Shown: piece after piece, positions 8,974-10,322 of the stretch
Layout of the letters: every line of letters begins with the position of its first letter
How positions within the stretch are numbered: position 1 is the first letter of the stretch
Source of the DNA: an uncultured Dehalococcoidia bacterium
Lineage (GTDB): Bacteria; Chloroflexota; Dehalococcoidia; Lucifugimonadales; UBA3495
Assembly: GCA_951813535.1 (NCBI GenBank)
Contig: OX638345.1
Span: forward strand, 1,315,029 to 1,379,028
Direction of reading: 5' to 3'
Length of the DNA: 64,000 nt
Notes under the pieces: generated by a model
Databases searched by the model: none
Seen by the model: only the letters and a program-made list of their open reading frames with translations
Told to the model about the DNA's origin: nothing
Made by a program: the position numbers and the translations under genes

Positions 8974-9792
8974 TTGACCAACGACCAGCACCTCTCGATT
9001 TCGGAAGCGATCAGTAGGTTTGTAGAACACCTAAAAGATAGCAAGCAGGCATTGCAGGGCCAGCAGGAATTGTTGCGTTTCCAGGCCAGGATAGGCAAGG
9101 AAAAAACGATGGCAACGCTCCACGCTATAGAGGTCGGCGAATACGCCAAGTGGACCACGGAGAACGTGGAAGATGCCTCCCTGAGGCTGGATCCGGTGAA
9201 GAAATTCCTGACGTTTGCCAACAAGCGCGGCTGGACAGAAATCAGCCTGGCACGGTACGCCGCGGCGCCCCGGCGCAACCGGCGGCGGTTCGCAGCCGGG
9301 GAGGCAGGATCGCGGGCGGCCGGCACCCCCAGCGCGCGTCTCAGCGAGGAGCGTCATATCGAGCTGCAGGCTGAATTGCAACGCCTGCGGGAAGAGGTTC
9401 CGCACATACGCGACGCGATCCGGCTGGCTCGAAGCGATGGCGACGTGCGGGAAAATGCCCCATTGGATGCAGCCCGGGAGCAGCAGCAGCTGACGGAGCG
9501 GCGCATCCGGCAACTGGAGAACGACCTGGCCAACGTGGAAATCGTGGACGCGGCCAACGCCGACACGGAAAAAGTGAGCATTGGGTCGCGGGTGACGCTC
9601 CACGAAATGGCGTCGAAGCAACAGCGGGTGTTCACCCTGGTGGACGTGCGCGAGGCGGACGTCTCGGCAGGGAAGATATCCACCGTGTCGCCGATCGGGC
9701 AGGCCCTGATGGGACGGAGCGCGGGCGAGGAAGTGACGATTGCGACGCCCCGGGGTGCGGTGGAGTACCGGATCGAGGGAATTGGCGGATAG
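8974..9792 (+). CDS. GreA-type transcription elongation factor fused to an N-terminal helical domain
   Basis: 272 residues. Residues about 118-270 are GreA-like: a long coiled coil (ERHIELQAELQRLREEVPHI, then RQLENDLANVEIVD) with acidic tip residues near DGDVRENAPLDAA, followed by the FKBP-like domain (VSIGSRVTLHEM, ISTVSPIGQALMGRSAGEEV, TPRGAVEYRIEGI). GreA releases backtracked RNA polymerase by stimulating transcript cleavage. Residues 1-95 are a separate helical domain (ISEAISRFVEHLKDSKQ, then a helix ending KKFLTFANKRGW) that resembles the SAM-like core-binding domain of tyrosine recombinases. A basic, Arg-rich linker joins them. Normal GreA is about 158 residues. Start is TTG at 8974 with GGAGGGA upstream; no ATG fits. 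Confidence 0.82.
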   Translation: MTNDQHLSISEAISRFVEHLKDSKQALQGQQELLRFQARIGKEKTMATLHAIEVGEYAKWTTENVEDASLRLDPVKKFLTFANKRGWTEISLARYAAAPRRNRRRFAAGEAGSRAAGTPSARLSEERHIELQAELQRLREEVPHIRDAIRLARSDGDVRENAPLDAAREQQQLTERRIRQLENDLANVEIVDAANADTEKVSIGSRVTLHEMASKQQRVFTLVDVREADVSAGKISTVSPIGQALMGRSAGEEVTIATPRGAVEYRIEGIGG

Positions 9793-9818: not shown

Positions 9819-9852
9819 CGAATGGGGCGGGTTGCACAACCCGCCCCATTCG
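9819..9852. terminator. Bidirectional terminator between convergent genes
   Basis: A 15-bp stem, CGAATGGGGCGGGTT pairing with its complement, around GCAC, located 26 bases after the GreA-fusion stop and immediately before the peroxiredoxin stop. T-rich stretches are short on both sides. It contains the GGGGCG core of the palindrome family. Confidence 0.7.
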
Positions 9853-9854
9853 AT

Positions 9855-10322
9855 TTAGCCGTTGATGTCAGTCACGGCCTGCAGGATTGTTTCCGGGTCC
9901 GGCAGCGTTCCCGGTTGGTAGGTCTCGCGATACCGGATCACGCCTTCCGGATCGACGATGATCACGGCCCGAGTCCCGGCTCCGCGCTCTTCGTTCCAAA
10001 GGTCGTATGCGGTGGTGGTCTGGCCCTTGGGATGCCAGTCGGATAGTTCGGGATAGGGCAGGCCACCCATGGTGGTCGTCCAGGCCCGGTGAGCGGCTAC
10101 GTGGTCACAACTGATGCCCAGCACCTGGGCATTCAACTCCTGGAACCGCGCGTTGAAACGGCGGAAGGAGGTGGCCTGGTCCGTTCAACCGCTGGTGAAA
10201 TCCAGGACGTGGAACGACAGCACCACGGTTTGGGCGCCGCGGTAGGTGCTCAGCGAAATGTCTCCGTCATTGGGAGACGGGAGAGTGAAATCCGGCGCGA
10301 TATCGCCGATTTGACCTGGCAT
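9855..10322 (-). CDS. Peroxiredoxin with predicted selenocysteine at residue 46 (in-frame UGA)
   Basis: AhpC/TSA-type peroxiredoxin, 155 residues including one in-frame UGA. It reduces peroxides with a peroxidatic Cys or Sec in a TxxC/U motif. Translation from the ATG at 10322 (GAGGAG upstream) gives MPGQIGDIAPDFTLPSP, then VVLSFHVLDFTSG, then UGA at 10185-10187, then TDQATSFRRFNARFQ and VLGISCDHVAAHRAW. The UGA replaces exactly the peroxidatic residue in Thr43-Ser-Gly-U46. The reading frame is intact on both sides, so a Sec readthrough is favoured over a pseudogene. A hairpin can be drawn directly after the UGA. No sel genes are in the window. The C-terminal half alone (from 10136) would lack the active site. 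Confidence 0.85.
10162..10187 (-). promoter_or_regulatory. Candidate bacterial SECIS hairpin after the UGA codon
   Basis: Counting from the base after UGA, bases 2-5 (CGGA) pair with 20-23 (UCCG) and 8-10 (AGG) pair with 17-19 (CCU), giving an apical loop 11-16 bases downstream. The distance fits bacterial SECIS elements, but the loop has no clear G/GU motif, so this needs a folding comparison with homologs. Confidence 0.45.

Follow-up and report, generated by a model that had tools for sequence, protein, structure and literature searches.

An in-frame UGA at the peroxidatic position of an AhpE-like peroxiredoxin gene very probably encodes selenocysteine in an uncultured Dehalococcoidia bacterium

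What does a UGA codon do at the active site of an otherwise intact peroxiredoxin gene? In the 64-kb stretch of DNA analysed here (the window), which comes from a marine Chloroflexota bacterium of the SAR202 type, the initial annotation had noticed a minus-strand frame interrupted only by one UGA at its catalytic position, and had proposed a selenoprotein. Translation confirmed the frame, of 155 residues from ATG 10322 to the TAA at 9857-9855; its only UGA, codon 46 (10187-10185), falls in the sequence TSG-U-TDQ. The surrounding sequence is that of a peroxiredoxin, as had been claimed: the read-through product matches Pfam AhpC-TSA over residues 5-131 (1.2e-34, 119.4 bits against a cut-off of 26), and Thr43 is present in 97 of 97 homologues. 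The predictions that standard annotation would keep just the last 93 residues and that a ribosome site precedes the gene also held, as table-11 ORF calling gives only a 93-residue fragment with a TTG start (10136-9855) and a GAGGAG sequence lies upstream. The features of the gene are:

9855..10322, minus strand: prx, a TxxU peroxiredoxin gene (AhpE-like), 155 codons plus TAA
10330..10335, minus strand: Shine-Dalgarno-like GAGGAG, read directly; similar sites lie 5' of the relatives' starts
10185..10187, minus strand: UGA codon 46, peroxidatic position, read as selenocysteine from the translation and the homologues' codons
10139..10171 (approximate), minus strand: candidate bSECIS hairpin inside the coding sequence, about 14-46 nt after the UGA, from comparison of relatives
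10107..10109, minus strand: codon for Cys72, the sole Cys of the protein, a possible resolving or auxiliary Cys, in 46 of 47 members of the close group
9969..9971, minus strand: codon for Arg118, conserved active-site Arg, in 97 of 97 homologues
9819..9852, no strand: perfect 16-nt inverted repeat just 3' of the prx stop, between the convergent prx and GreA-like genes

We consider it highly probable that the gene encodes a selenocysteine (Sec) peroxiredoxin of the AhpE-like TxxU type, in which the cell's machinery decodes UGA 46 and Sec46 acts on peroxide. Use of selenocysteine by this organism had been deduced from the UGA, a reading that would fall if a complete genome lacked selA, selB and selC. 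It is now strongly supported, because all are present in the same contig as the window, a genome of 4.38 Mb in one piece that is estimated to be 99.8% complete. All scored above curated cut-offs: selA at 542 bits (cut-off 268), selB at 355 (242), selD at 370 (125) and tRNA-Sec at 66 (gathering threshold 47), with ARAGORN agreeing on the last and giving the anticodon TCA (UCA in the RNA). The selD gene is itself of the Sec type, with UGA at its Sec/Cys site (HCAG-U-AAKL).

UGA occupies a redox position in ten genes besides prx: six UxxC thioredoxin-fold genes, three SelW-like CxxU genes and selD. Seven of the 12 AhpC-TSA matches in the genome contain one TGA, and the six other than prx read APWUPHC (twice), GVWUPYC, TYCUVNC, ATWUPEC and ATWUPVC. 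The SelW-like (Rdx) matches all have TGA in CxxU (3/3: CWDU, CVPU, CVPU), and the AhpD-like (CMD) proteins have no UGA, save one weak match. From these motifs the genome likely encodes at least eleven selenoproteins, prx included, a lower bound because the selenoproteome was sampled family by family and few families were searched. This exceeds the six by which selenoprotein-rich organisms have been defined (PMC5029168). Ordinary gene calling, which loses the prx active site, would break at least ten other genes in this genome, and the redox enzymes of this abundant uncultured marine and sponge-associated lineage are therefore likely to be misannotated. Two of the UxxC genes adjoin each other, and the TYCUVNC gene fuses its UGA-containing thioredoxin-like domain to a long repeat-like C-terminal region. 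Within the 64-kb window we saw no second credible UGA gene; further coding-like frames joined by UGA look, by eye, like antisense shadows.

Other readings of the codon have to be weighed against selenocysteine. TGA is one base from TGC and TGT, and a gene that standard annotation would break could be a pseudogene or a sequencing error, with a Cys codon mutated or misread. The initial annotation had raised the question of whether homologues carry Cys or Sec here, and the answer is both and nothing else: codon 46 is TGA in 87 of the 97 homologues read, from many assemblies, TGT in six and TGC in four. These homologues range from congeners (84-94% identity) to members of the order's other families (about 36-62%), and most best matches in the 147 related genomes searched have exactly one TGA. 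Purifying selection, moreover, is similar before and after the UGA. In comparisons with congeners dN is several-fold lower than dS on both sides (dN/dS of 0.041/0.23 before and 0.030/0.32 after, against congener L057). Because TGA is kept so widely and alternates only with Cys codons, neither a sequencing error nor a pseudogene lesion accounts for UGA 46; together with the selection this excludes error, pseudogene and chance frame, and the probability left to a broken or misread Cys codon is negligible.

The same data bear on what UGA is read as. A frame that a changed code keeps open does not by itself point to Sec, and UGA might specify another residue, through genome-wide recoding (such as to Trp or Gly) or unspecific readthrough. 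We find this very improbable: UGA is the true stop of close prx homologues and of the genome's own selD, every UGA gene inspected has its internal UGA at a redox position, where it alternates with Cys, and the full Sec machinery is present. The UGA could also be mainly a selenium-dependent switch that regulates termination, with the downstream ORF a separate product, and an in-frame ORF of 93 residues with a TTG start does exist. However, selection of the same kind acts on the 45 codons that precede the UGA, and the catalytic Thr43 and Arg118 fall on opposite sides of it, which makes a switch very improbable.

Read through as a Sec peroxiredoxin, the protein has a confident predicted model, with a pLDDT of 94.9 and a pTM of 0.91, in which residue 46 starts a helix (46-62). 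Thr43, U/C46 and Arg118 are invariant in the 97 homologues. A recent review describes the Pro of PxxxTxxU as highly conserved (PMC13188914). In prx this residue is Val; the homologues have V in 63, I in 17 and P in four of 87, and His38 precedes this position in 80 of 87. As the Pro is missing we claim membership of the superfamily, where the domain score and fold place prx, rather than the full classical signature. Cys72 lies just after strand 65-71. It is found in nearly all of the close group and in each of the five Cys orthologues, whereas just 20 of the 40 others have it. Cys72 may resolve the oxidised Sec in the close group, as a Sec46-Cys72 pair that we infer; proteins that lack this Cys would need an external reductant.

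The proposed mechanism is as follows. SelA, SelD and tRNA-Sec would provide Sec-tRNA, which SelB would deliver to UGA 46 under the guidance of the mRNA hairpin that follows the codon closely. Sec46 would sit where the active-site helix begins, with Thr43 and Arg118 holding it in place, attack peroxide and become a selenenic acid. Reduction of this acid would come from an external thiol or redoxin, or would start with Cys72, which would form an internal selenenylsulfide.

By sequence and by predicted fold, the nearest characterised relative appears to be AhpE of Mycobacterium tuberculosis. AhpE (1xxu, 4x0x) is the best fold match (TM 0.93-0.94, 34% identity), and its F37H variant 5c04 is the best sequence match in the PDB (8e-26). 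The prx protein differs from AhpE in its Sec (Cys in AhpE), its His where AhpE has Phe37, its Val (Pro in AhpE) and the extra Cys72. Like prx, Prx6-type 1-Cys peroxiredoxins have a His directly ahead of the active-site loop (HVLDFT in prx, HPRDFT in Prx6), but prx has no long C-terminal domain and best matches AhpE, not Prx6.

TxxU peroxiredoxins have long been known, the Eubacterium acidaminophilum PrxU among them (Sohling 2001, as cited in PMC13188914); ocean sampling gave 253 Sec peroxiredoxin sequences (PMC2398784) and bacterial genomes 91 (PMC5029168). PrxU and the ocean-metagenome proteins resemble prx in having an AhpC-TSA domain (pfam00578) with Sec for the peroxidatic Cys in TxxU (PMC1794560, PMC2398784, PMC13188914). 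In contrast, the PrxU model (NF040737) has 233 positions against the 155 residues of prx, and prx and most of its relatives have Val or Ile for the Pro of PxxxTxxU. Because prx scores 64.4 bits against that model, below its cut-off of 270, we class it within the TxxU group as a new member that is AhpE-like. We suggest only tentatively that the SAR202-type Chloroflexota are rich in selenoproteins, as a lineage not recognised for this before, and that this peroxiredoxin is a distinct Sec subfamily, marked by the change of an otherwise conserved Pro to Val or Ile and by the Sec46-Cys72 pair. In a study of sponge metagenomes, symbiont bins from several phyla had been seen to contain selA and selB (PMC5649159). 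The literature we searched yielded no description of SAR202 selenoproteins, which is weak evidence given its limited coverage.

The five Cys orthologues all belong to one family. In the midpoint-rooted tree they make up a clade nested within the Sec sequences (support 100/97, a fork of 23 rows), and the branch that leads to it is long (1.09). Their genomes still have selB (5/5) and selA (4/5, the fifth genome being 79% complete). The simplest reading of this pattern suggests replacement of Sec by Cys without loss of the Sec trait. The lineage also provides Sec and Cys orthologues as a natural series, with this apparent replacement in genomes that still have the machinery for Sec, and so bears on the question of why organisms keep Sec.

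The initial annotation had also described a hairpin after the UGA, a claim that the comparison of relatives supports and the prx sequence by itself does not. The relatives have a common stem 3' of the UGA (roughly CCUCG / CGAGG), continued by an upper stem, and their loop starts about 24 nt after the UGA. Pairs at third codon positions vary on both sides (15-45: CG 60, TA 12, GC 2; 24-36: GC 28, CG 14, TA 5). As a null, the codons of each column were permuted between sequences that share a residue there, leaving proteins and column make-up unchanged. Against this null the post-UGA window gave, in both groups, the strongest departure along the gene, by single-sequence folding (z of -7.4 and -10.9, with other windows at +3.2 to -5.8) as well as by consensus folding (z of -5.3 and -6.8, although one far upstream window reached -4.4 in one group), scores that are inflated, because codon permutation breaks relatedness, and are not probabilities. 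The positive result requires ribosum scoring or single-sequence folding, as RNAalifold without ribosum scoring found no consensus structure in the post-UGA window. The hairpin of prx itself was not more stable than shuffles in two single-sequence tests (z -0.5 and -0.2), and Rfam left it unmatched, with sub-threshold riboswitch noise only in the prx region. Conservation beyond codon permutation points to a probable bSECIS. Another, striking-looking hairpin (GCCCAG-GUG-CUGGGC, about +55 to +73) was set aside, being mostly dictated by the conserved peptide AQVLGI and far from the UGA.

The homologues outside Chloroflexota include those of Candidatus Entotheonella, one Armatimonadota and one Pseudomonadota assembly, which sit among Chloroflexota sequences in the tree. 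UGA-containing prx genes of Candidatus Entotheonella branch within these, which suggests gene transfer between sponge-associated lineages or contaminated bins. UGA-containing prx homologues end mostly in TAG or TAA and seldom in TGA. Searches of plasmids and viral contigs found no relative of prx, and phage records held only distant ones (<60% identity). Microcystis phage MaAM05 has a gene annotated prxU, a selenocysteine-containing peroxiredoxin (MW495066.1 40607-40999), whose product is 37% identical to the prx protein.

The inverted repeat beyond the prx stop, at which no T-run terminator was called, is a possible shared transcription end for prx and its convergent neighbour. That neighbour, a GreA/GreB-family ORF (8974-9792, plus strand), has an uncertain true start; its frame stays open upstream of the GreA domains for about 120 residues, an extension that has no match in Pfam and looks by eye like an integrase N-terminal domain.
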